A stretch of DNA of 51,430 nucleotides. It comes from Candidatus Levyibacteriota bacterium (GTDB lineage: Bacteria > Patescibacteriota > Microgenomatia > Levybacterales > GWA1-39-11). Of the stretch, positions 1,561 through 18,245 are shown piece by piece. A program made the position numbers and the translations under genes. The notes beneath the pieces are model-generated. The model was given only the letters and a program-made list of their open reading frames with translations, did not search any database and was not told the DNA's origin. Position 1 is the first letter of the stretch, and each line of letters begins with the position of its first letter. The stretch lies in assembly GCA_018062815.1 (NCBI GenBank), contig JAGORM010000005.1, positions 1 through 51,430 of the forward strand. The letters are read 5' to 3'.

Positions 1561-4145
1561 ATGTAGAAGTTTTTCGTCTCCTATATCGTAAATTTTTTAT
1601 ACTGTTTTTATTTACTGTAGCTTTCTTAATTTCACCACAATTGGTCGATGCACAAAATTCAGGAGGTGATCCACCATCTCAAACATGCGAATCAAGTGGA
1701 GGACAATGGGGAATGGATACGGGATGCAATTCTTCAGGATGTTGGACTATTCGCGGATGTATCTATGGCGGGCCACCTTTACCTCTACAGGGGGTAGCAT
1801 TTATAGACAAGAATCACGATCACATATATAACCCGCCTGATGTAGATCCTGAGACTGGGTTGCCATTTTTCACGGAAACAACTGATACTCTGATAGGAAA
1901 TGTTGGAAACGTAGCTATTTGGAATCCCGCAAATGGTCCAATACAAAGTAGTACTCCCCAATTCCCAATTGACTCAACGGGTTATTTTGAAACCAAAAAT
2001 TCTACCACTACCTATGTACCATCCCAAGCACTCCCCCTTACTTATATCCCCAACAGCACCACAACCCCGCCATTTGTAGGCTGGAGCTTATCATATGAAG
2101 TCTCTGAGTGCTATAATTTTTCATGCCAAGGAGGGGGAAACATGTTTATACCAGGATATACCGCTAACCCTTCTGGATTTGGCGCACAAGGGAATAAACT
2201 TTTAACGGCGTATATAATCTTTGACGGGCCATATGAGGTATCAGGAGCTATGTGGTACGACAAAAACGGAGACGGTGTAAAAAACGGATACTGGTTCTAT
2301 ATTGACCAAAATGGGAATAATGCCAAAGATACCTCTGAACCCTCCAGAAATTGCACAAGTACTTCTGATCCTGCTTGTTCTTCCTGGAGACTATGGTACA
2401 TTGACAGCGAAAATATACAGCCCGGAACGGGCGGAAGTTTTTCTACAAGCCCATACACCATTTCTTATTCTGCCGCAGGAACATATCAAATAAATGCAAG
2501 CATTCCCCCTGGATATACGCTAAGAAATGTGCCTGGGAATACAAATCCAAGAAGTGTGACCGTCAACGCCAATCTTACAAACGTCAACTTTGAGCTAGCT
2601 AGTGTATCTACCCCTCAGTGTGCGGGAAGTGGAGCAGGATTAAGTGTAAATCCTACGGGAGTGTATGCAAGAAATGGAAGTTATGCCACCTTTACGGTTG
2701 GACCATGCACCCCTTTAACACCTACACCACAGTATAGATGGCCAACACCTACCGCAGGAGTTTTCCCCACTCCTACGTGCGGAGTAAACTGTGTATATCA
2801 ACCCCCACCATCTGTGTGTTCTGTTCAAACCATAACCCAATCTGTTGAGGTATCAAACGGAGGGGGAGCCTCAACGTATAGTGCAAGCCTTGCCATTCTG
2901 CCATATAACCAGGCAACAGGAGTTGTCTACACTGATACAGGAAACAATAATTGCAGCAGTGGCGAAACAGTAAAACCCAATACCCAGGTACTACTGGTGG
3001 ACGGAGGGAGTGGTGTAACAAGCGATTCAACAAACACTAATAGTAGTGGGGTATATACCTTAACTGATACAGTTGCGTGCTCAAACAAGCATATTATCAT
3101 TCCTGGTCAAACCATAAAGCGGGTGCGCCCAGATGGTGGAGCATGGAGTTCAACCGGATTTACCGGATCAGACTACGGCCCCTTTACCTTTACAACGCCT
3201 GTCAAAACTGTGGACTTTTGCCTAGGAGGATTTGACCCATGGTACCAAACAGATAAGGGAGATGTACGGTTTGTAAACTTGTTTAATGCGCTTCCCACAA
3301 GCTCTAGCTATGCATCAACTGAAACATTGTACCCATCAGTTTTCTTCTCCTCTGCATCAACCCCTGACTTTAATGGAGGAAACGCCTCAACACTTAACTG
3401 GCAGATAGGACGGGAATACACATATAACAAAGTGTCCGCAGGAACATTAGGGGGGATGTCATATACCTTTTATGATTCCCAGACAAAAAAGAAAAATGTT
3501 TCAGTTCTAGCACTACCAGGATGCCCCGCAAATCCAGACGGAACACCTGCCAGTGGTAACTGCACGCTTAACTTTTCCTCCATCGCAGCAAGCCCTAAAC
3601 TCCCAAGCGGAGTGTATAAAGTGTTAGGAAACCTAACGATACAAAACACATACGCAATAACACAATCTGATCAACACGTAGTGATTTTAGTTCAGGGAGA
3701 AACATTCATAGGGGATACGACAACTCCCGCATCAATTACTACCGCTCCCGCTTTGGGAAATTTGTTCATACTGGCATCTAAAGGAACCATGCACATATCT
3801 CCACTTGTAGGAACCTCAAATTATGTACAGAATGGCGCATCTTCCGTAACTCAATTGGACGGATACTACACATCAGAGGGAAGTATAGGAATTGAAAGTA
3901 ATGCCGACTGTTCAGCTTCAACTCCTGTTTTAGACCTAAGACTGAATATGGGAGGTATGGTAACTGCAAATTCACTGCACCCACTGCAAACAGGACAAAG
4001 CGGACGAGTGGTTAACTACAGAACACTATGCAATACAAATGCCACTTCCCCTAGCTTTTTTGTGAAGTATAGGGCTGACTTCCTCACTCAAATGACTGAC
4101 TTCTACAAGACTACCTTGAAGACGTTTAAAGAAGTGGCACCGTAG
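1557..4145 (+). CDS. Large secreted surface protein with SdrD B-like repeats
   Basis: The 862-residue protein begins with a signal peptide ending near VDA|QN (residue 32). At least three segments resemble SdrD B-type (calcium-binding, Ig-like) repeats: GVAFIDKNHDHIYNPPDVDP (about 78-97), SGAMWYDKNGDGVKNGY with IDQNGNNAKDTSEP (about 228-262), and GVVYTDTGNNNCSSGE with a following VLLVDGG (about 455-485). The DxNxDG runs are typical acidic Ca2+-loop sequences. Cysteines are frequent, so disulfides are likely. The C-terminal approximately 300 residues form a separate beta-rich region ending in YRADFLTQMTDFYKTTLKTF and then EVAP, with no LPxTG sortase motif or C-terminal membrane helix. It is probably a cell-surface or pilus-associated adhesin. 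It is coupled to the anchored protein upstream. Confidence 0.75.
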   Translation: MNVEVFRLLYRKFFILFLFTVAFLISPQLVDAQNSGGDPPSQTCESSGGQWGMDTGCNSSGCWTIRGCIYGGPPLPLQGVAFIDKNHDHIYNPPDVDPETGLPFFTETTDTLIGNVGNVAIWNPANGPIQSSTPQFPIDSTGYFETKNSTTTYVPSQALPLTYIPNSTTTPPFVGWSLSYEVSECYNFSCQGGGNMFIPGYTANPSGFGAQGNKLLTAYIIFDGPYEVSGAMWYDKNGDGVKNGYWFYIDQNGNNAKDTSEPSRNCTSTSDPACSSWRLWYIDSENIQPGTGGSFSTSPYTISYSAAGTYQINASIPPGYTLRNVPGNTNPRSVTVNANLTNVNFELASVSTPQCAGSGAGLSVNPTGVYARNGSYATFTVGPCTPLTPTPQYRWPTPTAGVFPTPTCGVNCVYQPPPSVCSVQTITQSVEVSNGGGASTYSASLAILPYNQATGVVYTDTGNNNCSSGETVKPNTQVLLVDGGSGVTSDSTNTNSSGVYTLTDTVACSNKHIIIPGQTIKRVRPDGGAWSSTGFTGSDYGPFTFTTPVKTVDFCLGGFDPWYQTDKGDVRFVNLFNALPTSSSYASTETLYPSVFFSSASTPDFNGGNASTLNWQIGREYTYNKVSAGTLGGMSYTFYDSQTKKKNVSVLALPGCPANPDGTPASGNCTLNFSSIAASPKLPSGVYKVLGNLTIQNTYAITQSDQHVVILVQGETFIGDTTTPASITTAPALGNLFILASKGTMHISPLVGTSNYVQNGASSVTQLDGYYTSEGSIGIESNADCSASTPVLDLRLNMGGMVTANSLHPLQTGQSGRVVNYRTLCNTNATSPSFFVKYRADFLTQMTDFYKTTLKTFKEVAP

Positions 4146-4713: not shown

Positions 4714-5394
4714 ATGCACATTTCAGTCATAACACTATTTCCAAAAATGTTTTCAAATGTTCTTGACGCTTCAATTTTAAAAAGAGCACAAGAAAAGAAA
4801 AAGGTAACAATTGAAATAATAGATTTACGACAATTCGGAATAGGAAAGCACAAGAGCGTAGATGACAAACCATATGGGGGAGGGGCAGGCATGCTTTTAC
4901 GGGTGGATGTACTTCATAAAGCAATTATGCATATAAAGTCTACTCATCCAGATACAACAGTTATTTTACTTGGACCAAAAGGTACTTCTTTTACCCAAGA
5001 AACAGCTGAAAATCTAACGAAAAAAAGAGATATAACACTAATCTGCGGACATTATGAAGGAATTGATGCCAGAACATATAAATATATTGATTCTGAAATT
5101 TCTTTGGGTGATTTTGTTTTAACAGGTGGGGAGATTCCCGCAATGGCAGTAATTGATGCTGTAACCAGGATTATTCCAGGAGTGCTAGGAAAAGATGAAT
5201 CATTTCAGAACGAATCATTTACTTCTAAAAAGGGCAAAAGGGGGCTAGAAGGACATCACTACACAAGACCCAATGAGTATGATGGTGAAAGTGTCCCTAC
5301 GGAACTTTTATCGGGCGATCCGTTAGTCGTGGGAGATTTTAGAGAAAAAACGGCAATCTCTGAAACGCTTGAGAAAAGACCTGATCTCTATTGA
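4714..5394 (+). CDS. trmD: tRNA (guanine37-N1)-methyltransferase
   Basis: TrmD methylates G37 next to the anticodon using S-adenosylmethionine and prevents +1 frameshifting. The 226-residue protein has the SPOUT-class signatures: VDDKPYGGGAGMLLRVDVL (about 50-68), the trefoil-knot SAM site ICGHYEGIDARTYKYIDSE followed by SLGDFVLTGGE (about 109-140), and GVLGKDESFQNESF (about 155-168). Length is normal. It follows khpA after 48 nt that contain no strong signal. Its stop codon overlaps, in convergent orientation, the stop of the pilO-like gene (CTATTGA, 5388-5394), so neither gene has room for its own intrinsic terminator here. Confidence 0.96.
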   Translation: MHISVITLFPKMFSNVLDASILKRAQEKKKVTIEIIDLRQFGIGKHKSVDDKPYGGGAGMLLRVDVLHKAIMHIKSTHPDTTVILLGPKGTSFTQETAENLTKKRDITLICGHYEGIDARTYKYIDSEISLGDFVLTGGEIPAMAVIDAVTRIIPGVLGKDESFQNESFTSKKGKRGLEGHHYTRPNEYDGESVPTELLSGDPLVVGDFREKTAISETLEKRPDLY

Positions 5395-6032
5395 CCCTCA
5401 ACTTGTGGTAGTTCTTGCATCAGCTTATTTTCAGCAGCAGTAAATGGTGTAACTATATCAGATTGAAGCTTATTCAAGTCAAATGGCTTGTAATAAAATA
5501 TGACATCAACGTCCGCAAGCCCTTGATTCATTCTTATTTTTACAATTTTTGACAGTGGTGCTTCATTTAATAACTCTCTTGCAAACGCCTGAACACCATT
5601 TCTGTCTAAACCCGCAAGAGATAGATTTACAGTAATATACGGCACTCCAGTTGTAGTCTCACCTTCGGCGACACCTTTCTTAAATACGCCTCCTACCTTT
5701 ACCGTGAAACCGTTAATTGAAACTTGAGAGTTTGAGGCACTTGCTGTTAATGCAAGGTACATATTTTGCACGCTTTTTGTACTAGGAAGCGCGTTTGTAG
5801 TCTTTAGAAAATCATCCTCAATTTGAGATTCAGATAATTGATTAATCGTACCTACAGAAGTCTTATATGCCACGAGCTTTTCTTGCTCAGCTTGTAGTGC
5901 GCTTTGCGCATCAATAACTGCCCCGATCTGCGGAATTGTTACCTGCAATAGAATAAAAAGTGATCCAAGCAAAAACAAAGTTGCCAAAACCAACGACTTG
6001 TGCCGATTATAAAAAAGTGTAAAGTCTTCCAT
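5388..6032 (-). CDS. pilO: Type IV pilus assembly protein PilO-like
   Basis: This 214-residue protein has a short cytoplasmic N-terminus, one membrane helix (about residues 15-35), a coiled-coil-prone stretch (SALQAEQEKLVAYKTSVGTI) and a C-terminal alpha/beta (ferredoxin-like) domain. That is the architecture of PilO, which dimerises with PilN to form the inner-membrane alignment complex connecting the motor to the pilus base. Sequence identity to classical PilO is low and the call relies on topology plus its place as the last gene of a pilM-pilN-pilO run. PilP and the secretin PilQ are absent from the cluster, as expected for a cell without an outer membrane. Confidence 0.75.
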   Translation of the reverse strand: MEDFTLFYNRHKSLVLATLFLLGSLFILLQVTIPQIGAVIDAQSALQAEQEKLVAYKTSVGTINQLSESQIEDDFLKTTNALPSTKSVQNMYLALTASASNSQVSINGFTVKVGGVFKKGVAEGETTTGVPYITVNLSLAGLDRNGVQAFARELLNEAPLSKIVKIRMNQGLADVDVIFYYKPFDLNKLQSDIVTPFTAAENKLMQELPQVEGQ

Positions 6033-6583
6033 TAATTAATAGATGTATTAAATGTAATTTTTATATCAGAACTATAGCTTGTACCTTTTGAACTTAATCC
6101 AAAAGATTGTATTTCAATCTTTTTAACCTGTGAACCTTTTTTCCCTGGAAGCGCAACAAGATCAGAATTTAAAAATGAATTTAAAACAGAAAGACTTTTA
6201 GATGAAATGGTAATATTCATTACTGTATCTATCATTTCCAGTTTATCAAGTGAGACGGCAGAAGGGATACTTGAAAGTACTGCTTCAAGACGACTTTCTG
6301 GTACAGAGTTGTTTGGTATTATTCTTTTAATTGTATTTAATCTTTCCTTAGTTGTCAGTATTTTTATTTTCTTGTCTTGATCCGATTTTAATACAGATAG
6401 TTCTTTGTTCTGATTAGATATAGTATTTGATATGCTTGATTTAAGAAAAAATAAATATAGAAGAATTAAGACAGTTATAAGCACAAGAATAAGAAGCACT
6501 AAAATACTAAGGTAAAAAAATGATGCCTTCTTTTTAACCTGCAACTTGTCGGTCTTGATTAGATTTACTGTATCTTGAGTCAT
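6032..6583 (-). CDS. pilN: Type IV pilus assembly protein PilN-like
   Basis: The 183-residue protein has a basic N-terminus (KTDKLQVKKK), a long membrane helix (about 22-48), a helical stalk (NQNKELSVLKSDQDKKIKIL) and a small C-terminal domain with the PilN pattern VPESRLEAVLSSIPSAVSLD, in which the L-P-x-x-V-x-L-x-x-(I/M) element is typical. PilN's cytoplasmic N-terminus normally binds PilM. The classical INLLP-like PilM-binding motif is not obvious; TVNLIKTD at residues 5-12 is the nearest. The start lies 4 nt after the pilM stop and the stop abuts the pilO start. Confidence 0.75.
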   Translation of the reverse strand: MTQDTVNLIKTDKLQVKKKASFFYLSILVLLILVLITVLILLYLFFLKSSISNTISNQNKELSVLKSDQDKKIKILTTKERLNTIKRIIPNNSVPESRLEAVLSSIPSAVSLDKLEMIDTVMNITISSKSLSVLNSFLNSDLVALPGKKGSQVKKIEIQSFGLSSKGTSYSSDIKITFNTSIN

Positions 6584-6587
6584 ATAT

Positions 6588-7619
6588 CTATGTTACTATA
6601 TCTCGCAAAGCAAGTCCTACTACAACGTTATAACTGGGTGCCTCCTGTAGCACCTCCTCTGGAACATTTGAGATTCTGTGCAATACAAAAGTATTTCCTA
6701 CTGTTGTTGTTAAACCCAAAGATTCAGTGAAGAATTGCTCAATACCGGGTAAAAGCGCTGTTCCTCCTGAAAGCACAACCTTATTTACTAGTGCGTTTTT
6801 ATTTTTTTCTTTATAGGTAAGTATAGCGCGCTTTATATCCGCGACAATAGCATCTAAAACTGGTCGAAGTGCTGATCCAATTTTTCCTTCAAATGTGTTT
6901 GTCAGACCGTACGTTTTTTTTAATTCTTCAGCTTGCGAGGTGGCAATACCTAAATCGGAAGATATAGCGCGAGTTATAGCAAGCCCGCCAAGTCCAATGG
7001 TCGCAATAAATCGCAAAACACCACTAGCCGTAATAGTTATATTTGTAGATGAAGATCCAAGATGTACTACAAGACACGTTTCATTTGGCGTAAAAAGAGG
7101 AGACAATGCACGTTGTACAGAAATCATTTCTGTCTCAACACTTGAAGGAACAAGTCCTGAAAGAGTGAGTATGTTTTCATATTTTTCCAAAACAGAAGTT
7201 GATGCCGCTATTATCAAAACAGACATAGTTTTTTGACCATCCTTTATGAAGTGGTCTAATATCTGCCAATCAGTTTTAACTTGGTTGAGAGGAAGTGGAA
7301 TATATTGTTCCATCTCAAATGAAAGAGAAGCAGCCAATTCTTTTTCTGATAATTCAGGTGTTTCTATAATTTTTGTATAGACTTGACTTGCCGGAATAGA
7401 AACGTTAACACTTTTTGTCTTTATCTGCGCAATTCCCAGCATCTCATGAATAGATGAAGCTATTGTTTGCTGGTTTAATTGCGATTCTGACAGAATACTT
7501 TTTGCAGTAAAAGGGGATACGGCAATTGCTTCAACCGAAAATTTATTTCCTTCACTTTTTAAAGACACTGATTTTATTGACGTAGTGCCTATATCAAGAC
7601 CAAATGATTTAACTTTCAT
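6588..7619 (-). CDS. pilM: Type IV pilus actin-like ATPase PilM
   Basis: PilM is the cytoplasmic, actin/FtsA-fold member of the pilus alignment complex and binds PilN. The 343-residue sequence opens with VKSFGLDIGTTSIKSVSLK (phosphate-1 loop), has SFEMEQYIPLPLNQVKTDW (about 103-121), typical of PilM, and the second nucleotide loop and hinge VVLSGGTALLPGIEQFF (about 282-298). Length is normal. It starts 3 nt after the LamG-type minor-pilin gene, so the pilM-N-O block is transcribed with it. Confidence 0.92.
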   Translation of the reverse strand: MKVKSFGLDIGTTSIKSVSLKSEGNKFSVEAIAVSPFTAKSILSESQLNQQTIASSIHEMLGIAQIKTKSVNVSIPASQVYTKIIETPELSEKELAASLSFEMEQYIPLPLNQVKTDWQILDHFIKDGQKTMSVLIIAASTSVLEKYENILTLSGLVPSSVETEMISVQRALSPLFTPNETCLVVHLGSSSTNITITASGVLRFIATIGLGGLAITRAISSDLGIATSQAEELKKTYGLTNTFEGKIGSALRPVLDAIVADIKRAILTYKEKNKNALVNKVVLSGGTALLPGIEQFFTESLGLTTTVGNTFVLHRISNVPEEVLQEAPSYNVVVGLALRDIVT

Positions 7620-7622
7620 ATA

Positions 7623-9251
7623 CTATTGGGAGAGTATTGAATACTGCATTGCTTCCGTTGGAAGCTGCGGATACGACTCAAAATATTGGATCTTACGTGT
7701 AGTTTCACCGGACGTCCCAACTGACTCAATGACTTTTCCTTGTGATGGGAGGGTTACACCGGAACTACCCACAACTCCTATAACGCTTGAGTTATAAAGA
7801 GGTATAACTTTTAAGATAAGAGCGCTTGATAGGGGAATAGGATCTGTTTTAAAGTACAGGAGTTTTCCATTCACTTCCTGTCCATCATAGGTTGATGGTG
7901 CAGTCGTGGGAGTAGGGGTTGGAGCAGATGTATCGCAGGATAAACCGTTTCCGGAATTATATAGTGTTTGCACTTCAGTCTCTGTGATCGCGCGGTTCCA
8001 AATCCCAATATCATCTAATGCCCCAGTGTAAACTGCATAGTTTCCGTATTCACGAGCCCCAAATCTGAATGGAGCATTTACAGATGCAGTGTTTCGACCG
8101 CCTAAACTGTTGAAGGTTCCTGAGTTTGACTGCACACCATCAACATAAATCTTAACTAATGGATCAGGAGTTATTGCACCATCGTAGGTAACTGCAAAAT
8201 GATGCCAATTACCATCTCTCACATTTACCGTACCCCCAACCGTAATCTGATATGGAATATGATAATCATTTACGTTGTACAAAAGAAGCGTACCATCCGG
8301 CTGCGTTGATATAGACCACCCATTCCCATTCCCTGCTCCGTGCATATCAGCGACTAAAAATTGGTATGAACTTGTGGGAGATGCCTTCAACCATCCTGCA
8401 ACAGTGTACTGCTGAGAAGTTGCAAAATCCAAACCCTTTGTACTTGCTTGACCCATATTCACCGCCCCTGTAGTTGCATCTGAAGGCGTAGTAGCAGTAT
8501 TTGTAAATTGAAGTGCATTCCCCAATTTACCAGCAACTCTAGCTACATTATTTACTATTGTCCCATTTGCTGTGCCACCAACACCTATTACATCAGCTAC
8601 TGTCGCCCCACTTGATTCATCCGCTGGCCAATAATGCGCAAGCCCTGTCGTAGGACACGCCGCAGGAGTGGGTGTGGGATTCCCCCCCGAAGAGTTTGTA
8701 CCAAGAGGTGTAGCGAAATTATTACTTGATCTTCTGTTCCCATATGCCCCCCCACATGCATCATATGCGTACTTTGTAACTGTGGGATTTAACTTTGAAC
8801 CAGACAGTAGCACTATCTCAAGCGCCGGAACTGAATCTCTATCCGTTGCTGCACAATTTGAGGCATTTTTTGTCCCCCACAAGAGAGAAATACTTCCACT
8901 ATTCATTGGAGAAGAAAAATCTGGGTAGTTTGAAAGCCATATATCCATACCTCTATCTTGTGGAACCAAGTCTCCATTATTCAGTAAAATACTATTCCCA
9001 GAGGCAGCAGATATGTTGGTTGTAAAACTAGCATTTGTTAGATTTCCAACCCCTTGTCCTGTCGTAATAGATTTTTCGATTCCCGCACTTGCTGCTTGAA
9101 ACGCTCGCTGAGAATCTTCATTTTGTTTTGATACTTTTAAATTTGTTATGGTGCGAGAAGCCAATGTTAAAGCCGCGGTAAGAGCCACAACCATAGTAAT
9201 TACGACAATTAACAATACCTGACCAGAAGATGATCTATTATTTTTTTCCAT
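7623..9251 (-). CDS. PilX-like minor pilin fused to a LamG-type lectin domain
   Basis: With the preferred ATG at 9251 the protein has 542 residues. An N-terminal SGQVLLIVVITMVVALTAAL membrane helix and a following amphipathic helix (QRAFQAASAGIEKS) resemble PilX-type minor pilins, which carry weak or no prepilin cleavage sites. After a Pro/Thr linker (NPTPTPAACPTT), residues about 205-440 form a concanavalin-like LamG (LamGL) domain: LAHYWPADESSG, LGNALQF, QYTVAGWLK, GNWHHFAVTYDG, VKIYVDGV, GALDDIGIWNRAITETEVQ. A second Pro/Thr linker leads to a beta-rich tail. LamG domains commonly bind carbohydrate or protein, so a pilus-tip adhesin is the likely role. The upstream ATG at 9260 overlaps the predicted -10 box, which is why 9251 is chosen. 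Confidence 0.82.
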   Translation of the reverse strand: MEKNNRSSSGQVLLIVVITMVVALTAALTLASRTITNLKVSKQNEDSQRAFQAASAGIEKSITTGQGVGNLTNASFTTNISAASGNSILLNNGDLVPQDRGMDIWLSNYPDFSSPMNSGSISLLWGTKNASNCAATDRDSVPALEIVLLSGSKLNPTVTKYAYDACGGAYGNRRSSNNFATPLGTNSSGGNPTPTPAACPTTGLAHYWPADESSGATVADVIGVGGTANGTIVNNVARVAGKLGNALQFTNTATTPSDATTGAVNMGQASTKGLDFATSQQYTVAGWLKASPTSSYQFLVADMHGAGNGNGWSISTQPDGTLLLYNVNDYHIPYQITVGGTVNVRDGNWHHFAVTYDGAITPDPLVKIYVDGVQSNSGTFNSLGGRNTASVNAPFRFGAREYGNYAVYTGALDDIGIWNRAITETEVQTLYNSGNGLSCDTSAPTPTPTTAPSTYDGQEVNGKLLYFKTDPIPLSSALILKVIPLYNSSVIGVVGSSGVTLPSQGKVIESVGTSGETTRKIQYFESYPQLPTEAMQYSILSQ

Positions 9252-9258
9252 CTCATTC

Positions 9259-9288
9259 ATGATAGACTTAAAGCCGCAAGGCTGTCAA
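9259..9288 (-). promoter_or_regulatory. Internal promoter ahead of the LamG pilin-pilMNO block
   Basis: On the minus strand TTGACA (9288-9283), an 18 bp spacer and TATCAT (9264-9259) end 7 nt before the ATG at 9251. It lies between the PilW-like gene and the LamG pilin and would allow the adhesin and pilMNO to be expressed independently of the upstream pilin genes, as a leaderless mRNA. A GCC/GGC mini-hairpin with a 4 nt loop lies within the spacer. Confidence 0.55.
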
Positions 9289-9295
9289 GTAAAAC

Positions 9296-9898
9296 CTAAT
9301 AGCTTTGGTTACGCAAAGATACAGATGTATTAAATGATGCTACACCCGTCTTATCTGACGCAGTTCCCGAAGAATTCACTAACTGAAACTGCACATCAAT
9401 TCGAGGAGGAGAATATATGTCTTGCTGAGTACATGTAAATGAGCATGTCGCAGGAGCAAGTTTAACACGAGATGTGTCAATCAATTGGGTAATTTTATAA
9501 GGGGTTGGAGTAGGAGGAAGAGCACTAAAAATTGCACTACTTGAGCTAATCGTATACTCATCCTCATTGCAGGTAAATGTTGTAGTTCCCCCATCAAAAC
9601 CTAGTACCGTAAGCGATTGTCCTGCAGGTGGAGTATTTACACAATCAGTTATAGAAGCAGAATTTGCAGGGGTAAATGAAATAAGTTGCTGTGAATTAGT
9701 CAGAACATTTGAAATAGTAGAAAGCGCGTAGTTTCCGTTTTGGGCTATGTCACTTGTTATCTTAGATTTTGAAGTTCCCCTATAAGTGGCATTCAATATC
9801 CCAACTACAACCGTACCAGTTATTATTAGAAGCATCATAACTATAATTAATTCAATAAGCGTATAGCCGTATGTATGTGTTATGTTATACCTTTTCAT
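9296..9898 (-). CDS. Prepilin-like protein (PilW/GspJ type)
   Basis: The 200-residue reading starts at MKRYNITHTYG, giving a basic leader and a prepilin peptidase site G|YTLIELIIVMMLLI (G11, then Tyr instead of Phe, and Glu at +5). About 18 hydrophobic residues follow and then the helical stalk. The rest is a beta-rich globular domain with cysteines (about 90-190). Length and position between the PilV-like and PilX-like genes suit PilW/GspJ, which help prime the pilus tip. A longer reading upstream of 9898 would hide the leader inside the preceding gene. The chosen ATG overlaps the preceding stop as ATGA with AAGGA just upstream. Confidence 0.8.
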   Translation of the reverse strand: MKRYNITHTYGYTLIELIIVMMLLIITGTVVVGILNATYRGTSKSKITSDIAQNGNYALSTISNVLTNSQQLISFTPANSASITDCVNTPPAGQSLTVLGFDGGTTTFTCNEDEYTISSSSAIFSALPPTPTPYKITQLIDTSRVKLAPATCSFTCTQQDIYSPPRIDVQFQLVNSSGTASDKTGVASFNTSVSLRNQSY

Positions 9899-10407
9899 AT
9901 TCCTTGATATGCTGTTGGATATGTTGTTGGAAACTGCTTTGATACGTCTAAGAAGCATGATCTGACTGATTTTTTATTACAGAATGCCGCAGTACATTTA
10001 CTGCTTGTCCAGGAAACTGTAACAGTAACATAGAGACCATTCACAAACGTGTTCCCAGCGCCACAATTACCCGACTCAAAGTTTACCTCACGCTTAAATT
10101 GGTCAAAAACATAGTCATTTGCCGTGCAGGCAGTATTAAGAAGACTGTTTTGCTCATTCAAGCACTTCGCGTCAGTATAGGTACGATACGTAGCAATCAT
10201 ATTATTGTTTGATATCTGGTCCCGCATATACTCAAGCCCCTGTTGTGCAAGTTTATTTGCCTGGTTTTGTTGCTTCACAAAAACTGAGTTATTAACACTT
10301 GTTAATACTGCCACAGCCGTTGCGCTAAGAATAATAACCAATAATGAAAGTGCTATTATTGCCTCAACTAAAGTTTGACCAGAACTGTTTTTAAATTTTA
10401 TGAGCAT
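9895..10407 (-). CDS. Prepilin-like protein (PilV/GspI type)
   Basis: This 170-residue protein begins MLIKFKNSSG|QTLVEAIIALSLLV: a short basic leader, a Gly at the cleavage site and Glu at +5, with Gln rather than Phe at +1, common in PilV/GspI-type minor pilins. The stalk helix (ANKLAQQGLEYMRDQI) contains the A-x-x-L-A-x-x-G-L-E pattern typical of the class. The C-terminal domain has several Cys. It would be processed by the PilD encoded upstream and join the minor-pilin initiation complex. It overlaps the preceding pseudopilin gene by 10 nt and the next gene by 4 nt, so the five pilin genes form one operon. Confidence 0.82.
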   Translation of the reverse strand: MLIKFKNSSGQTLVEAIIALSLLVIILSATAVAVLTSVNNSVFVKQQNQANKLAQQGLEYMRDQISNNNMIATYRTYTDAKCLNEQNSLLNTACTANDYVFDQFKREVNFESGNCGAGNTFVNGLYVTVTVSWTSSKCTAAFCNKKSVRSCFLDVSKQFPTTYPTAYQGI

Positions 10408-10979
10408 GTTACCGTTCCTTCTTTTATGTTTACATTCCCTCCATTATCTACGCAAATTGTCTTACTCATAGAACTGTCTGTTGCAGTCAGAACAATTCTA
10501 CAACTATCAGTATCAGACCCGTTTGCAACTATGTAAAAGCGCAAAATATTATTTGACCCACACTCACCATTTGCTATACTAACCACTAAATTAGATGGTC
10601 GTTTTTTAGTATACACGGTATAGTAACCAGAATTTGTTGATCCAACATAACAAACCGCGTCCGTTTGATATAGATTTGTGGGATCAGTACATAAATTTGT
10701 CTCACCTGAAGCGTTTGCGCAAGTAACAAATCGGTAACGGTCGAGTGCACCTGTGCAAAGGGTAGGCTTTACCCTTGATGTTGCATTTGCGCGAGCCTGA
10801 TCAATTCCATTTTTTATATCTATTGCGGCTTGATCAAATACCTGTTTTTTACTGTATGATAAAAATGAAGCAAAACCAATGCCCGTTAACAATCCAATAA
10901 CTGAAAAGACTACTAGGAGCTCTAAAAGAGTAAATCCATTATTGTTATTAAGAATATGAAAAGACAGGTACTTTTTCAA
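10398..10979 (-). CDS. Prepilin-like protein (FimT/GspH type), TTG start
   Basis: The 193-residue protein has a leader ending NNNNG|FTLLELLVVFSVIGLL, a perfect class III prepilin signal with Glu at +5. The stalk and DIKNGIDQARANATSRV (about 60-76) match the FimT/GspH minor-pilin pattern. The globular part has paired cysteines (about 79-107 and 151-165). No ATG fits: the best start is TTG at 10979, 13 nt after the previous stop. It would be a PilD substrate and part of the pilus-tip priming complex. Confidence 0.8.
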   Translation of the reverse strand: MKKYLSFHILNNNNGFTLLELLVVFSVIGLLTGIGFASFLSYSKKQVFDQAAIDIKNGIDQARANATSRVKPTLCTGALDRYRFVTCANASGETNLCTDPTNLYQTDAVCYVGSTNSGYYTVYTKKRPSNLVVSIANGECGSNNILRFYIVANGSDTDSCRIVLTATDSSMSKTICVDNGGNVNIKEGTVTCS

Positions 10980-11486: not shown

Positions 11487-11969
11487 TCAAGGCGATATGT
11501 TACTGCTAGTGATACCAAAATTGCATGGCTTATTAGATCCGCACAGAAAAGGTGCTGGCACACCTTCACATTCTCCGCTTACCGTACATGCCTCTTCCCA
11601 TATGCTTGGGTTTTCTAACGAGGCATATAGCCTATAAGACTGAAAATTATTATCTTCGTCAGCCCAGTACACATACCTTCTGTTTATCCCTGTATCCCTC
11701 GGTAAAAATTCAAAATAGGGCATCCAGGGTGCCCCCCATGTATATACATCATCACGGTCTGCAATCACATAATTCACTTTGTCATAATGTGGATAGTGCC
11801 CATAATCTCTGAAGTATTTCTCAAGCCCTAAAGAAATCAATTTCAGATCCCGAATTCTTTTCTCATCATTTTTACTCTGAAGCATTTTCCATGGGTTTAC
11901 AACATAGAAGCCCACACCAATTAATATACAAATAGATAAGAATATCAAAAAAACACCGAATTTAGACAT
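11487..11969 (-). CDS. GspG-like globular domain on an ordinary membrane anchor
   Basis: The 160-residue protein has one N-terminal hydrophobic segment (about residues 5-25, FGVFLIFLSICILIGVGFYV) but no G|FTLIE prepilin site. It is followed directly by NDEKRIRDLKLISLGLEKYF and RDYGHYP, the same pattern as the stalk end and NxxYP loop of GspG pseudopilins. The remainder has four Cys and many aromatics (WGAPWMPYFEFLPRD, YVYWADEDN). It is therefore pilin-like but should not be a PilD substrate and may stay in the membrane as a pilus or secretion accessory. It sits between pilD and the GspG-like gene. An in-frame GTG at 11975 overlapping the pilD stop is the alternative start. Confidence 0.7.
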   Translation of the reverse strand: MSKFGVFLIFLSICILIGVGFYVVNPWKMLQSKNDEKRIRDLKLISLGLEKYFRDYGHYPHYDKVNYVIADRDDVYTWGAPWMPYFEFLPRDTGINRRYVYWADEDNNFQSYRLYASLENPSIWEEACTVSGECEGVPAPFLCGSNKPCNFGITSSNISP

Positions 11970-11971
11970 AT

Positions 11972-12733
11972 TCACACTCCAATTAAAGGTAGTATAGCCT
12001 GCAATATTTGATTCTCAAAGAGCAAGGGAACAATAATTCCTAAGCTTAAAAAAGGCCCAAAAGGAATACTCCCCCCTTTAAGCTTTTTTTTACCTATGCT
12101 AATTAGTATTATGGAAATTAGAGCCCCTGTCAAGAACGTCGTATAAAAAGCAATTACCAGTCCTAGCGGTGACAATAAGAATCCTATTACAAGAGCATAT
12201 TTTACGTCTCCAAAACCGATACCTCTGCCTTTTGTTACAAGAAAAATTGTTAAGAAAAAAATGAAAGCAATAGCTGCTGTTATAAGATGTAGGACTACAT
12301 TTGGTGAGCCTCCTAAAACCAAGACAACTGACAAAATTCCTAAAACAGAAAGCAGCTTATCAGAGATAACTCTGTAATCTATATCTATTAGTGCAATTGC
12401 AATTGCCAGCAAACAGATACCGCAAAGCAGGGCATACTGTATCCAATTTACAAAACTTAAAATAAAAAGCAAGACAAAAAGAAATCCGGCTAAGACTTCA
12501 ACAATGAAAACTCTCACAGGAATTTTCTTTTTGCATTCCCTACACTTACCTGAAAGAAAAAGGTATGAGAAGATAGGAACCATGTCATATGGTTTTAGTT
12601 TTTTCTTGCAATAATCACAGTGAGAGTTTCCGTAAAAAATACTTTCTTTTCTTGGGATTCTGTCTGCGAGAACATTTATAAAACTTCCAAAACAACTTCC
12701 AATTATGAATAAAAATAAGTAAATTAGAATCAC
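11972..12733 (-). CDS. pilD: Prepilin leader peptidase / N-methyltransferase
   Basis: PilD cleaves the leaders of type IV prepilins and N-methylates the new N-terminus at the inner face of the membrane. The 253-residue protein has the N-terminal domain with two CxxC pairs (CDYCKKKLKPYDMVPIFSYL, then CRECKKKIP; about residues 35-74). It has about seven membrane helices. The catalytic aspartates appear in ALIDIDYRVI (about 110-119) and in the GFGDVKYAL loop (about 172-180), the conserved G-x-G-D motif. The start is GTG: the overlapping ATG at 12735 hits a stop at once, and a -10 box ends exactly 6 nt upstream of the GTG. Confidence 0.95.
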   Translation of the reverse strand: MILIYLFLFIIGSCFGSFINVLADRIPRKESIFYGNSHCDYCKKKLKPYDMVPIFSYLFLSGKCRECKKKIPVRVFIVEVLAGFLFVLLFILSFVNWIQYALLCGICLLAIAIALIDIDYRVISDKLLSVLGILSVVLVLGGSPNVVLHLITAAIAFIFFLTIFLVTKGRGIGFGDVKYALVIGFLLSPLGLVIAFYTTFLTGALISIILISIGKKKLKGGSIPFGPFLSLGIIVPLLFENQILQAILPLIGV

Positions 12734-12739
12734 ATATTA

Positions 12740-12768
12740 ATAGTACAAAGTTTGTAAGAAAGTATCAA
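12740..12768 (-). promoter_or_regulatory. Promoter predicting a leaderless pilD-pseudopilin mRNA
   Basis: On the minus strand TTGATA (12768-12763), a 17 bp spacer and TACTAT (12745-12740), which ends 6 nt before the GTG at 12733. This also explains why pilD uses GTG and has no Shine-Dalgarno sequence. Confidence 0.6.
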
Positions 12769-12782
12769 GGAGTAGAGGGTTT

Positions 12783-12811
12783 AAATAAAAAAAACTCCTT
12801 TCGGAGTTTTT
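12783..12811 (-). terminator. Intrinsic terminator of the major pilin gene
   Basis: On the minus strand AAAACTCC pairs with GGAGTTTT (12810-12803 with 12798-12791) around a GAAA tetraloop, followed by a U-rich run. It lies 18 nt after the pilin stop and separates the highly expressed pilin from the pilD operon. It is the clearest intrinsic terminator in the window. Confidence 0.85.
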
Positions 12812-12828
12812 CTATTTTTTCAGATGTT

Positions 12829-13332
12829 CTATGGACATGTGGTCGCTGCAGTGATAGACGTTCCGTTTGCTTTAAAGCATCCTTGTCCGTTTGCGTATAC
12901 GTATATTTGTCCAGATGTTGGTCCTCCGTATTTTTTAGACTTCAAAGCTGTTACCCAAAAAGCATAATTATTGCAATTTGCGCCTGCAGTAGTGCATGAT
13001 GCTGTTGTTGCATAGCTTACAGTGTATCCAGTTGGAGCTGTATATGAACCTATTTTTGATTCTCCTGCAGTTTGCAGATCTGTAAGAGCTGCATTAACCG
13101 TTGTTCCTCCCACATAGGTGTTATTATGCGTAGCAGCGTATGTATCATTTGCTTTTCCAAATTGTGCTAGAGATGTAACAACGCCTGAATCGTTTGCTGC
13201 GTTAATTTTATCAAGTGGATCAATTGTTGTAATAAGGACTGCTGCAAGAACTCCGAGGATTGCAATAACAACAATGAGCTCTATAAGAGTGAAACCTTTT
13301 GAGTTTCTTATTTGGGCAGGTAATAATTTCAT
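12829..13332 (-). CDS. Type IV major pilin
   Basis: The 167-residue prepilin has leader MKLLPAQIRNSKG and the processed N-terminus FTLIELIVVIAILGVLAAVL, with Glu at +5. The stalk helix reads DPLDKINAANDSGVVTSLAQFGKANDTYAA. The globular part is small, Thr/Ala/Gly-rich and low in charge, with two cysteine pairs (about residues 112/119 and 151/166). It alone among the pilin genes has its own promoter and a strong terminator, the usual sign of the abundant fibre subunit. PilD and the assembly machinery are encoded next door. Confidence 0.9.
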   Translation of the reverse strand: MKLLPAQIRNSKGFTLIELIVVIAILGVLAAVLITTIDPLDKINAANDSGVVTSLAQFGKANDTYAATHNNTYVGGTTVNAALTDLQTAGESKIGSYTAPTGYTVSYATTASCTTAGANCNNYAFWVTALKSKKYGGPTSGQIYVYANGQGCFKANGTSITAATTCP

Positions 13333-13341
13333 GTTAAAAAT

Positions 13342-13371
13342 ATCTAATCAGAAAACTGAATAGCTTGTCAA
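13342..13371 (-). promoter_or_regulatory. Major pilin promoter
   Basis: A perfect TTGACA (13371-13366) on the minus strand lies 33 nt before the ATG. The -10 is either TTAGAT (18 bp spacer, 9 nt before ATG) or TAGATA (19 bp, 8 nt). Either way the leader would be only a few bases. The -10 is weaker than expected for a major pilin, so an activator is possible. Confidence 0.5.
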
Positions 13372-13526
13372 TAAGCAATTTCTTACAGGATAAATATTTT
13401 TACCTTATTATTAAATTTTTACTATTAAATAAGGACTATATCTGAAATACTAAAATATTAGAGGATAAATTATATAATTGCATCAAACAATTATCTAAAA
13501 AAGCATATACTTCTATCTTTGCATCT

Positions 13527-14138
13527 TTAAAGAAGTGAAGCCTCCAGAGCAAGTCTTTTATTAACATTGTTAGTTTTTGTTAATTTATAGGAATTGTGTA
13601 ATTTTCTAAGCACTGGCAAAATTACAGAAGCGCGTGATAAATCCTCTTTAATAAGACTTCTTAATGCAAGGAGTATTGACTCAATATTTTCAGTTTCTAT
13701 AATAGCCGGCAAGAGACTTACAATTCCAAAAGTATTATATTGTGATTCTTCAAAAACTTTACTTATTTTGTTAAAAAGTTCAACATCCATTTCTTTTTTT
13801 TCGTTTTCTAAATTCACAATCAGACATCTTGACAAAATAGTGGGCAACAATTCATCTTTTGTACTAGATACAAAAAAAATGGCATTTTGAGAAGTCGCCT
13901 CCTCAACTGTTTTCAGAAGCGCATTTTGGGATTCTAATGTTGGACTCGCTATAATTATTACCCTCATTTCACCCTCCTTCAATTTTAGAGACATTGTATG
14001 TTGAAGCAAACGAACCTGAGCAATTTTGCAACTCTCAAGTTTTATAACATGGTATGCTGGAACATGGTGTGTTTTTATAAACGAACTTAAATATGTTTCT
14101 TGAAAATTTGAGGACCCAATGAGTGCGTATGTGTGCAT
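13527..14138 (-). CDS. DNA polymerase III delta'-like protein lacking the P-loop
   Basis: This 203-residue protein resembles the clamp-loader delta' subunit (HolB/DnaX AAA+ fold). It has ESQNALLKTVEEATSQNAIF (about 72-91), FVSSTKDELLPTILSRC (about 92-108, with the conserved S-R-C sensor/arginine finger motif) and then a helical region. Length is about two-thirds of typical delta', and the Walker A loop (GxxGxGKT) expected near the N-terminus is absent (MHTYALIGSSNFQETYLSSF). Delta' is catalytically inert in many bacteria, so loss of the P-loop is compatible with function. A minus-strand TATAAT (14158-14153) with TTTAAT 17 bp upstream gives a 14 nt gap to the ATG and overlaps the divergent pilB promoter. 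Confidence 0.8.
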   Translation of the reverse strand: MHTYALIGSSNFQETYLSSFIKTHHVPAYHVIKLESCKIAQVRLLQHTMSLKLKEGEMRVIIIASPTLESQNALLKTVEEATSQNAIFFVSSTKDELLPTILSRCLIVNLENEKKEMDVELFNKISKVFEESQYNTFGIVSLLPAIIETENIESILLALRSLIKEDLSRASVILPVLRKLHNSYKLTKTNNVNKRLALEASLL

Positions 14139-14147
14139 ACTTCTTTA

Positions 14148-14177
14148 TTGACATTATAATAACTATTCTAATACTAT
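14148..14177 (+). promoter_or_regulatory. Promoter of pilB-pilT-pilC
   Basis: TTGACA (14148-14153), an 18 bp spacer and TACTAT (14172-14177). The predicted start is near 14184, immediately before a perfect inverted repeat. It overlaps the divergent promoter of the delta'-like gene, so the two could interfere with each other. Confidence 0.6.
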
Positions 14178-14184
14178 TAAACAA

Positions 14185-14207
14185 GTATCCCAGATGAATT
14201 GGGATAC
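14185..14207 (+). promoter_or_regulatory. 5'-end hairpin or operator in the pilB leader
   Basis: GTATCCCA (14185-14192) and TGGGATAC (14200-14207) form a perfect 8 bp inverted repeat with a 7 nt spacer. It starts one base after the predicted transcription start and ends 6 nt before the pilB ATG. There is no T-run, so it is not a terminator. It could be an mRNA-stabilising 5' hairpin or a protein-binding operator. Confidence 0.6.
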
Positions 14208-14213
14208 TGTTCT

Positions 14214-15959
14214 ATGGATCCTGCCCAAACAAATCAACCACAACAGACAAATCAAAATATTAAACCTGAAAAAAATATTTCAGATGTTCTCATAGAGGAA
14301 GGGTTACTTACTCCTGAACAATATAAAAGATTAACAGAAGAAGCATCCGCTCGGGGAACAACGGTCGAGCAGCTTTTACTTGAAACGAATATAATTAATG
14401 AGGAACAGTATTATGAGGCCCGCGCGAAACTTACAGGAATACCGTTTGTATCCGTTGCAACACTTCCGTTTTCACCTGAATCATTAAGCTTTATTCCCAA
14501 AAATGTTGCAGAACGCTTTCAGGTAGTACCTTTTTCTTACGACAAGGCGAAGCTTTCTATTTCTCTTGCAATGGCTGACCCCCTAGATTTTGAGGCAATA
14601 AATTTTATTCAGCAAAAAACCGGAATGACTGTGGTTGCATTTCAATCTATCCCTTCAGAAATTTCTGAGGCAATAAAAAACGAATACAACATAGGACTTA
14701 TAGGTGAGGTTAAAGAGGCTTTAAAAGAAACTGAGCAAATTTCTAAAATAAAAACTTTTGACCAAGAAAGTATTGCAAAAGTTATAAAAGAAGCACCAAT
14801 TGCCAAAATTGTCTCAACTATTCTAGAATACGCCATTAAAAGCCGTGCGTCAGATGTTCACATAGAACCTCAAGAGGATCGTGTACGAGTGCGCTACCGG
14901 ATTGACGGAATCTTATACGAAAGACTCGCCCTCCCTAAAGCGGTACAGGACGCAGTCATCTCCAGAATTAAAATACTTTCTGATTTAAAAATAGACGAGC
15001 GTAGAACACCTCAAGATGGAAGATTTAATTTTAAATATCTTGATCAGGAAGTAGATCTTCGCGTGTCAGTTCTACCTACAACATATGGAGAAAAGATTGT
15101 CATGCGTCTTCTTCGAAAAAGCGGGGGAGTACCTACTCTAACAGAGCTTGGAATACGGGGAACAGCCCAGAAAGAATTAGAGGCAGCTATCTCAAGACCG
15201 CATGGAATAATTATTGTTTGTGGACCAACAGGAAGCGGAAAAACAACAACCCTCTATGCAGTACTTTCAAGAATAAACACCACAAAAGTAAACATCTCAA
15301 CTCTTGAAGATCCTGTCGAATATCAAATACCTGGATCTAATCAGGTACAAATTAATCCAGACGTAGGACTTACGTTTGCAAGCGGTTTGAGAGCATTTTT
15401 AAGACAGGATCCGAACATAATTTTGGTGGGTGAAATTAGAGACAAGGAAACTACTGATCTTGCAATCCAAGCGGCATTAACAGGACATTTAGTTTTTTCA
15501 ACACTTCATACATCAAATGCATCCGGAGCCCTTCCAAGACTTATAGACATGGGAGCAGAAACTTTTCTTTTAGCATCCACTATGACAGCAATAGTAGGGC
15601 AACGAATTGCCAGAAAAATCTGCCCAGACTGTAAAATTTCCTATATCCCAACTCAGGAAGTAATTTTAGAAATAAAACATGTATTGGGGTCATTAATGCC
15701 TCAAGGGGAAATACATTTATATAAAGGGAACGGCTGTGAATCATGCGGACAATCTGGATATCTTGGCAGAGTAGGAATATATGAGGTTCTTACTGTGACA
15801 AACCAGATAGCAAAAATGATCCTAGAGCGATCAGATGCAAACTCTATTGAACAAGAAGCAAAGAAAGAAGGAATGATTACCATAAAAGAAGACGGATATC
15901 TTAAAGCTTTAGAGGGAACAACCACAATTGAAGAGGTATTACGAGTCGCTCAAGATTAA
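14214..15959 (+). CDS. pilB: Type IV pilus extension ATPase PilB
   Basis: PilB is the hexameric cytoplasmic ATPase that powers pilus polymerisation. The 581-residue protein has an N-terminal MshEN-type domain (VLIEEGLLTPEQYKRL and following), the linker, and the GspE/PilB motor: Walker A GPTGSGKTT (about 337-345), the Asp box LEDPVEY, Walker B RQDPNIILVGEIRDKETTD, and the His box STLHTSNASGALPRL. The zinc-binding tetracysteine CPDCK ... CESCGQSGY (about 475-520) is present. The ATG at 14214 follows the hairpin; the TTG at 14199 lies inside it and is not preferred. pilT follows after 7 nt. Confidence 0.96.
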   Translation: MDPAQTNQPQQTNQNIKPEKNISDVLIEEGLLTPEQYKRLTEEASARGTTVEQLLLETNIINEEQYYEARAKLTGIPFVSVATLPFSPESLSFIPKNVAERFQVVPFSYDKAKLSISLAMADPLDFEAINFIQQKTGMTVVAFQSIPSEISEAIKNEYNIGLIGEVKEALKETEQISKIKTFDQESIAKVIKEAPIAKIVSTILEYAIKSRASDVHIEPQEDRVRVRYRIDGILYERLALPKAVQDAVISRIKILSDLKIDERRTPQDGRFNFKYLDQEVDLRVSVLPTTYGEKIVMRLLRKSGGVPTLTELGIRGTAQKELEAAISRPHGIIIVCGPTGSGKTTTLYAVLSRINTTKVNISTLEDPVEYQIPGSNQVQINPDVGLTFASGLRAFLRQDPNIILVGEIRDKETTDLAIQAALTGHLVFSTLHTSNASGALPRLIDMGAETFLLASTMTAIVGQRIARKICPDCKISYIPTQEVILEIKHVLGSLMPQGEIHLYKGNGCESCGQSGYLGRVGIYEVLTVTNQIAKMILERSDANSIEQEAKKEGMITIKEDGYLKALEGTTTIEEVLRVAQD

Positions 15960-15966
15960 TAAATAT

Positions 15967-17034
15967 ATGGAAATTTTAGAATTACTTGAAAAAACAGTTC
16001 AAAACAATGCTTCTGACCTTCATTTAGTTGTCGGGGATGTACCTGCGATAAGAATTGACGGAAGATTAACATTTTTAAATACTTATCCTCAGATAGAAAA
16101 AGACGAAATGGAAAAAATGATAGCAAGTATTTTGACTGCTCATCAAAAAGAATTCTTAGTAAATAATAGAAGCTTGGATTTTTCATATGCCTATGGCGGC
16201 GGAAATTTTGGTGACAGAGGCAGATTTAGAGTAAATTGTTATTATCAACGCGGAACACTTGCGGCAGCCTTCAGACTACTTCCAACAAGAATTAGAACCA
16301 TTGAGGAATTGGGACTTCCACCAATTTGTAGTACGTTTTCAAAATTAAGACAAGGATTTGTACTTGTAACAGGACCTACTGGTCATGGAAAATCTACAAC
16401 GCTCGCCGCAATTATAAATCAAATCAACTCTGAGCGTTCATCTAACATCATCACAATTGAAGATCCCATTGAGTATATGTACCCTAAGGGAAAGAGCATA
16501 GTCTCTCAAAGAGAATTAGGGTCTGACACTTTTTCATGGCACGAAGGACTTAAAAGCGCACTAAGAGAAGATATTGATGTTGTTCTAATTGGAGAAATGC
16601 GAGACCCTGAAAGCATTGCAACAGCCATCTCAATTGCGGAAACCGGGCATTTAGTTTTTTCTACACTTCACACTAATTCCGCAGCGCAAAGCATTGACCG
16701 TATAATTGACTCTTTCCCAGAAGCACAACAAGCTCAGATTAGAGTACAACTTGCAGGAACACTAGCTGGGATTATCTCTCAAAGACTTATTGAGAGGATT
16801 GATGCTGGCCGAGCAGTAGCCACTGAAGTCTTACTCGGAACAAATGCAGTTAGGGCCACCATCAGAGACGGTAAAACACATTTATTAGACTCCATTATAG
16901 AAACCTCCCAGAATGAAGGGATGATACCGCTTGACGTATCTTTGGCAAATCTAGTAAAAGATGGCGCTATTGCACTTGATACAGGTAAAAGCTACTCGCT
17001 TCATATGGATTCATTCTTAAGACTACTCTCATAA
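15967..17034 (+). CDS. pilT: Pilus retraction ATPase PilT
   Basis: PilT is the ATPase that depolymerises pili and drives twitching. The 355-residue protein has DLHLVVGDVPAIRIDG near the N-terminus and the PilT motor: Walker A GPTGHGKST (about 136-144), the Asp box TIEDPIEYM, Walker B LREDIDVVLIGEMRDPESI, His box HLVFSTLHTNSAAQSIDRI and AGIISQRLIERID. The His in the P-loop, where PilT of model species has Ser, is a conservative but visible difference. The classical AIRNLIRE C-terminal motif is not clear; RATIRDGKTHLLDSII occupies the place. The ATG at 15967 is chosen because the extra upstream residues lie inside pilB. Confidence 0.94.
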   Translation: MEILELLEKTVQNNASDLHLVVGDVPAIRIDGRLTFLNTYPQIEKDEMEKMIASILTAHQKEFLVNNRSLDFSYAYGGGNFGDRGRFRVNCYYQRGTLAAAFRLLPTRIRTIEELGLPPICSTFSKLRQGFVLVTGPTGHGKSTTLAAIINQINSERSSNIITIEDPIEYMYPKGKSIVSQRELGSDTFSWHEGLKSALREDIDVVLIGEMRDPESIATAISIAETGHLVFSTLHTNSAAQSIDRIIDSFPEAQQAQIRVQLAGTLAGIISQRLIERIDAGRAVATEVLLGTNAVRATIRDGKTHLLDSIIETSQNEGMIPLDVSLANLVKDGAIALDTGKSYSLHMDSFLRLLS

Positions 17035-17042
17035 AATGCACT

Positions 17043-18245
17043 ATGCGATACTCATATATAGCAGTAAACAATACAGGAGCAAAACAAAAAGGATTACTTG
17101 AAGCAAATAGTCAAAAAGAAGTAATAGACTACTTAAGAGAAAATAATCTCACCCCAATATTAATCCGCGAAGAACATGAGAATCATCTCCCTTTTTTAAA
17201 TTATGTAAACCGCGTTAAACAAGATGATATTGTTATTTTTACTCGACAACTAGCATCCATGATACAAACCGGTCTTACCCTAATTGAAGCACTTACTATT
17301 TTAAAAGACCAGGCACAGAAAACACAGCTAAAGGCACTCCTTGCTGACCTTATCGCAAACATATCCGGTGGCAGCTCTTTCTCCGAAGCTCTCTCTTATC
17401 ACAGAGATGTTTTCTCAGATGTTTATATCGCATTGGTTAGGGCGGCAGAAGCGGGGGGGGTAATGGATAAAATATTATCACGTCTCGCAGATAACCTAGA
17501 ACGCTCTCAGGATTTAAAAAGAAAGGTTAGATCCGCCCTTTTTTATCCGCTTATAGTAGTCGTGGGCGTAGTTTTAGTAATTGTAGTTATGAATGTTTTT
17601 GTTATTCCACAATTATCTACGCTTTACGAAGGTCTAAACGTTGAATTACCGCTTACCACTAGGATTGTTCTTGGGTTCTCAAAACTATTCACAACATTTT
17701 CTCCTCTTATGATAATTCTCATTATTGCGTGCGTCTTCTTATATAAACGTTTCTCAAAGAGTGGAACCGGAAAAGAACTTATTGACTCATATAAACTAAA
17801 GGTGCCAGTAATCGGAAAAATTTTAGTGTTATCCATTGAAGACGAAATTGCCCGAACTCTTTCTCTTCTTATTTCATCAGGTACATCAATCTTAGAAAGT
17901 CTTCACATAGCGGCAAACGTTGCAGGAAACTATAAATACAAACAGGGTGTGCTCTCATCTGCAACTTTAGTAGAAAAAGGATTAACACTTTCAGCGGCTT
18001 TTGAGCAGCAGAACATATTCCCCGCTATTTTTATTCAAATGACAAAGGTCGGAGAATCAACCGGAAAAATTGATGAAAATTTAAATAAAGTCGCAGAATA
18101 CTTTGAGCGCGACCTAGAACTAAAGGTAAAAACACTCACAACATCAATTGAACCTATACTATTGGTGGTTTTAGGTGTAACTGTAGGATTCTTAATTATT
18201 TCAGTTATATCTCCGATTTACGGACTCATCTCGTCAATCCAGTAG
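17043..18245 (+). CDS. pilC: Type IV pilus inner-membrane platform protein PilC
   Basis: PilC/GspF is the polytopic platform on which PilB and PilT act. The 400-residue protein has two tandem GspF domains: DIVIFTRQLASMIQTGLTLIEALTIL (about 62-87) with the first membrane pair near FYPLIVVVGVVLVIVVMNVF (about 168-187), and IARTLSLLISSGTSILESLHIAANV (about 275-299), then the C-terminal helix ILLVVLGVTVGFLIISVI. Length is typical. It closes the pilB-T-C operon. Its last 20 bases overlap the 3' end of a minus-strand gene. Confidence 0.95.
   Translation: MRYSYIAVNNTGAKQKGLLEANSQKEVIDYLRENNLTPILIREEHENHLPFLNYVNRVKQDDIVIFTRQLASMIQTGLTLIEALTILKDQAQKTQLKALLADLIANISGGSSFSEALSYHRDVFSDVYIALVRAAEAGGVMDKILSRLADNLERSQDLKRKVRSALFYPLIVVVGVVLVIVVMNVFVIPQLSTLYEGLNVELPLTTRIVLGFSKLFTTFSPLMIILIIACVFLYKRFSKSGTGKELIDSYKLKVPVIGKILVLSIEDEIARTLSLLISSGTSILESLHIAANVAGNYKYKQGVLSSATLVEKGLTLSAAFEQQNIFPAIFIQMTKVGESTGKIDENLNKVAEYFERDLELKVKTLTTSIEPILLVVLGVTVGFLIISVISPIYGLISSIQ

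Follow-up and report, generated by a model that had tools for sequence, protein, structure and literature searches.

Alignment with its orthologs showed that the minor pilin encoded at positions 7623 to 9251 (minus strand) of the window, i.e., the whole 51,430-nucleotide stretch that was analysed, carries a LamG domain inserted into a loop of the pilin head, with residues 1-168 and 457-542 forming one PilX-type pilin. With a probability of roughly 0.72, we take this protein to be the K (PilX/GspK-type) subunit of an H-I-J-K set that initiates and caps a type IV pilus, its LamG domain being held in the head loop by two flexible Pro/Thr linkers. The gene and its parts are as follows.

7623..9251, minus strand: gene of the PilX-like minor pilin that contains LamG (542 aa; start alternatively at 9260; from the open reading frame and HMM matches of the N- and C-part)
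9259..9288, minus strand: promoter TTGACA-N18-TATCAT (11/12 consensus matches; 7 nt to the ATG at 9251)
9222..9251, minus strand: leader peptide of class III, MEKNNRSSSG (prepilin peptidase predicted to cleave ahead of Q11; Ile at mature position +5)
8748..9251, minus strand: first pilin segment, residues 1-168 (helix alpha1 plus the initial half of the head; from AlphaFold; aligned to all family orthologs)
8661..8747, minus strand: linker 1, residues 169-197 (Ser/Gly/Asn, then PTPTP; absent from the orthologs)
7923..8660, minus strand: LamG / ConA-like jelly-roll domain, residues about 198-443 (from PF13385, AlphaFold and Foldseek)
7884..7922, minus strand: linker 2, residues about 444-456 (PTPTPTTAPST; from the sequence)
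7626..7883, minus strand: second pilin segment, residues 457-542 (remainder of the head sheet; from ortholog alignment, HMM and AlphaFold)

The gene lies in a single open frame (7623-9260, minus strand), in which a second in-frame ATG at 9251 gives the 542-aa product; based on promoter geometry and on the starts of relatives, we favour 9251 over 9260. The N-terminus consists of a short polar leader ending in G (MEKNNRSSSG), after which the mature protein would begin with QVLLIVVITMVVALTAALTLAS, about 21 hydrophobic residues forming alpha1; in the AlphaFold model the helix covers residues 7-64. The G-Q pair at the leader cut was kept in 36 of 37 orthologs by a scripted count. Such a leader and helix, with pilD present nearby, are those of a type IV pilin with a class III signal peptide. 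Further along the chain, Pro/Thr linkers flank the LamG domain on both sides (NPTPTPAA at about residue 192 and APTPTPTTAPST at about residue 444), and the frame continues past LamG into an 86-residue pilin segment at the C-terminus, which identifies LamG as an internal insertion. HMMs of the N- and C-part of the pilin both matched the window protein in this one frame (1.7e-55 and 9.2e-28, respectively).

Comparison with relatives gave the same layout. All seven other genomes of the family encode one protein of 278-300 aa that aligns to window residues about 4-180 (45-58% identity) and about 452-542 (45-60% identity), and no equivalent of LamG was found in these seven orthologs, the pilin being about 280 aa throughout and the two matched stretches being given also as residues about 7-167 and about 457-542. 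The original prediction, a stalk joined through linkers to a LamG domain, thus holds for the linkers, whereas the split alignment in 7/7 family orthologs places LamG inside the head and not at the end of the stalk. At the order level, 75 of 82 genomes yielded the pilin, with all copies but that of the window measuring 262-333 aa. In a class-wide sample it was matched in 345 of 374 genomes, and among those 345, weaker matches included, no other copy had a LamG insertion at this place. The LamG insertion in the PilX head is therefore known from one genome, and the gain of LamG was probably a one-off event, the pilin being conserved otherwise. The adhesin swap that had also been envisaged for this locus was not encountered in the near relatives, whose PilX carries no module at all.

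Several other long frames were considered and set aside. An apparent giant fusion at pilX in one genome (G103, 1791 aa) was an artefact of a run of N, and frames of ~390-640 aa near pilX in several families proved to be a separate PilX-like paralog devoid of LamG rather than orthologs that had gained an insert. In G188, the second PilX-like frame (G188:C28; L093, 2301-3272) combines long Pro/Thr linkers with a module that has no family assignment; as assembly gaps cut through it, this frame was left unclassed.

In the full-length AlphaFold model, which rests on 8 sequences and does not extend to the position of LamG relative to the head, both pilin halves were built with high confidence (pLDDT of about 80-93 for most blocks between residues 11 and 160, and of 74-94 in blocks 461-530). 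The LamG part was left unmodelled because the alignment held no homologues there, and for that reason a Foldseek search with the full-length model found nothing; phmmer of the whole window protein against the PDB returned zero matches. A joint alignment of pilins and LamG segments was misaligned and was left out of the folding.

Laminin_G_3 (PF13385) recognised the LamG domain itself, scoring 77.9 bits over residues 270-428 (E=1.1e-21; curated cut-off 27.6), in agreement with the complete LamG domain initially proposed. When residues 195-446 were folded alone with 45 homologues, AlphaFold2 predicted 15 strands and a C-terminal helix (pLDDT 85.4, pTM 0.87), that is, the jelly roll on which the original prediction had staked residues 205-440. 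Foldseek of this LamG model retrieved 387 PDB chains at E<=0.001 (best E 4e-12), the best of which are ConA-like jelly rolls belonging to receptor- or sugar-binding domains, and a profile search agreed. The closest LamG homologues in the class share about 30-35% identity across most of the domain. In a LamG tree the window domain remained unplaced on a long branch (best identity 31%), and a donor was not found.

With regard to the pilin type, the pilus genes surrounding pilX in the window are the following.

10398..10979, minus strand: H-type minor pilin, GspH/FimT-like (GspH 1.7e-10)
9895..10407, minus strand: I-type minor pilin, PilV/GspI-like (N_methyl 1.1e-4; PilV 0.0013)
9296..9958, minus strand: J-type minor pilin, PilW/GspJ position (N_methyl 0.0063; ComGE 7e-4)
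6588..7619, minus strand: pilM (PF11104 4.6e-51)
6032..6583, minus strand: pilN-like (from position, membrane helix and order; the Pfam search gave no informative match)
5388..6032, minus strand: pilO-like (from position and shape)
11972..12733, minus strand: pilD prepilin peptidase (PF06750 5.3e-32, PF01478 8.5e-13)
14199..18245, plus strand: pilB, pilT and pilC assembly genes (T2SSE 6e-130 and 1.2e-42, T2SSF 7.6e-58)

The order H-I-J-K-pilMNO was thus found, with family matches of I and J that are individually weak, and the four subunits are provisionally assigned from gene order and weak profile matches. Glu at mature position 5 is absent from the window pilin, which has Ile, and 34 of 37 orthologs have I or V; the single E at +5 (L042) came from the script matching an early Gly. 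K subunits capping H-I-J-K complexes also lack Glu5 (PMC10628169). At E<=0.5, PilX_N (PF14341) weakly matched 35 of the 37 orthologs (best 1.1e-5), and it had no match with the window pilin itself at E<=0.1. Most likely, therefore, the window pilin is the K (GspK/PilX) subunit capping the pilus tip, an assignment that draws on gene order and the missing Glu5 more than on profile score. These data are in line with the PilX-like pilin of the original prediction, by virtue of its prepilin leader, helix and weak PilX_N matches in orthologs, as well as with the pilMNO genes it had placed downstream (PilM by its Pfam match, PilN and PilO by position and shape) and with the CPR lineage it had assumed, the nearest named relatives being Ca. 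Levybacteria. Elsewhere in the window (1557-4145, plus strand), a secreted protein of 862 aa, which contains Pro/Thr linkers and matches DUF7305 below the threshold (E 0.033), is possibly a second surface- or pilus-associated protein.

The promoter that had been assigned to the gene was recovered too, and it is kept in relatives. Upstream of their pilX genes (L003-L048, L079), an exact TTGACA occupied the same place in 29 of 31 cases, together with a -10 of the TAxxxT type, and the distance from the -10 to the first in-frame start was mostly 6-12 nt. Several of these promoters, taken singly, were not significant against shuffles; it is their recurrence at one place that constitutes the evidence. 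Since only 7 nt separate promoter and start in the window, a leaderless or near-leaderless mRNA is predicted, and the recurrence suggests that the pilX-pilMNO transcript is of this kind across the order.

Further away, the idea of swapped adhesins found partial parallels, both in LamG domains on other pilins of the cluster and, in another class, in a different module placed in a neighbouring PilX loop. Regarding the former, a GspH-like pilin of the same cluster type carries Pro/Thr linkers, LamG and SdrD_B domains (G031, locus L079), and an I-position pilin has a C-terminal LamG (G263, locus L138). The L079 cluster in G031 (6230-8224 and 11785-15180) comprises, in addition to this GspH-like LamG pilin, four further LamG prepilins in tandem. 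Outside the class, PilX-type pilins carry DUF2341 and two LamG domains, RCC1 repeats, or B_lectin, and the N-terminus of one Kelch protein resembles PilX. Within the order, 32 of 82 genomes also have LamG in other proteins. In one genome (G402; L146 and L114), a prepilin LamG clustered with the LamGs of a secreted protein of the same genome (SH-aLRT 99), which suggests module exchange.

As for the latter, two genomes from another class of the phylum have the PilX N- and C-parts in one frame with a domain in between, as in the window.

L160 (G462), 651-2255: PilX-type pilin with inserted domain
L163 (G426), 1912-3903: PilX-type pilin with inserted domain

Separate HMMs of the N- and C-part were needed in order to detect these halves (N 4.1e-17 and 3.2e-13, C about 5e-5), since hhalign of the PilX profile against G462/G426 aligned the N-terminal helix alone. 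Here, the insert is another domain and lies about one strand earlier, at profile positions 151-158 as compared with about 175 for the window LamG. Matches to HpiC1-like and GTA spike-fibre models were weak and all under the cut-off, and we provisionally regard the insert as jelly-roll-like and carbohydrate-binding-like, different from LamG. It thus seems that the PilX head received inserts on at least two occasions, and in loops next to each other. A tentative generalisation, which we would not yet bet on, is that Patescibacteria have repeatedly used the head of their K (PilX) cap to accept binding modules, with other lineages appending modules to H or I of the tip set.

The window protein joins a non-pilus-specific functional domain to a pilin moiety and so belongs with the modular pilins, among whose frequent modules PF13385 is named (PMC8179133). 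PilC of S. sanguinis is likewise a type IV minor pilin with a ConA-like jelly roll for which tip display is proposed; its C-terminal lectin module binds glycans (PMC9934059). However, in PilC and the catalogued modular pilins the module follows a Glu5/N_methyl pilin, whereas in the window it lies inside a PilX/K-type head. Patescibacterial counterparts are PilX1 and PilX2 of TM7x (Saccharibacteria), PilX-type minor pilins with an extra jelly roll (PilX1) or RCC1 propeller (PilX2); according to their published description, these modules are C-terminal, in contrast to the window pilin, where pilin sequence takes over again behind LamG and runs to the C-terminus. Both GspK, which corresponds to PilX in the T2SS, and ComZ of Thermus are tip subunits with a large domain inserted in the pilin head (PMC8179133; PMC7248040), and their inserts are an alpha-domain and a beta-solenoid, unlike the flexibly linked LamG of the window pilin. 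Separately, then, modular pilins, pilins bearing LamG and tip-pilin inserts are all known already (PMC8179133, PMC7248040), whereas the literature searched did not show a one-off gain of LamG inside a K/PilX head.

Judging from the families involved, PilD would cut off the 10-residue leader, K would join H, I and J in an apical assembly that starts the pilus, and LamG would be displayed at the tip, given the expected place of K and the bulk of LamG. A tip-displayed binding module is thus the most likely reading, probably providing a sticky tip for attachment to other cells or sugars. With less assurance, we infer that the ligand of LamG may be a glycan or protein carried by a partner cell or a surface and that, as pilT is present, pilus retraction could then draw the cell to its bound partner. 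LamG domains also have protein-binding or structural roles. Host recognition by the LamG pilin and an epibiotic way of life, both part of the original prediction, are plausible. TM7x binds its host by its type IV pilus and deletion of pilX2 reduces host binding (PMC12206443), which, together with glycan binding by PilC, makes a partner-binding role plausible rather than proven.

The tip LamG might instead bind environmental polysaccharide, biofilm matrix or sister cells and not a specific host, which we consider somewhat unlikely. Domain 4 of the arabinanase AbnA (5hon), which binds arabinan and is among the top structural matches and second in the profile search, fits such a ligand, as does the abundance of LamG in other proteins of the order; nothing direct speaks against it, although Patescibacteria in culture are episymbionts and the TM7x pilus is used on a host. 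More doubtful is a structural role in which the insert caps the pilus or blocks subunit addition like the GspK alpha-domain, or binds Ca2+ or another pilin, with no part in host recognition. The GspK insert is thought to shield the tip cavity and so confine GspK to the tip (PMC7248040), and in the window the same subunit type and a neighbouring head region are affected. However, relatives keep a complete pilus cluster without LamG, which indicates that LamG is not needed for capping, and flexible Pro/Thr tethers on both sides also argue against such a role. Moreover, the LamG fold family is mostly ligand-binding. Finally, an assembly or binning artefact joining a LamG fragment into pilX of this MAG, suggested by the single genome, the repeat-like PTPTP of both linkers and the 25-contig draft record, is very improbable given that both junctions are in frame in one open frame with zero stops, that the base composition of the insert resembles the host genome (GC3 0.31 vs 0.27 +/- 0.04) and that this LamG is the sole one in its genome, leaving no second copy to derive from.

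Type IV pilus tip subunits are leading candidates for partner recognition in Patescibacteria. The same pilin with and without the module constitutes a clean natural comparison, and searches for modular pilins based on N_methyl (IPR012902) or C-terminal domains miss insertions in PilX-type subunits. If the K head does act as an acceptor site, tip specificity would evolve by moving lectin-like modules among tip subunits, which could set the partner choice of episymbionts.
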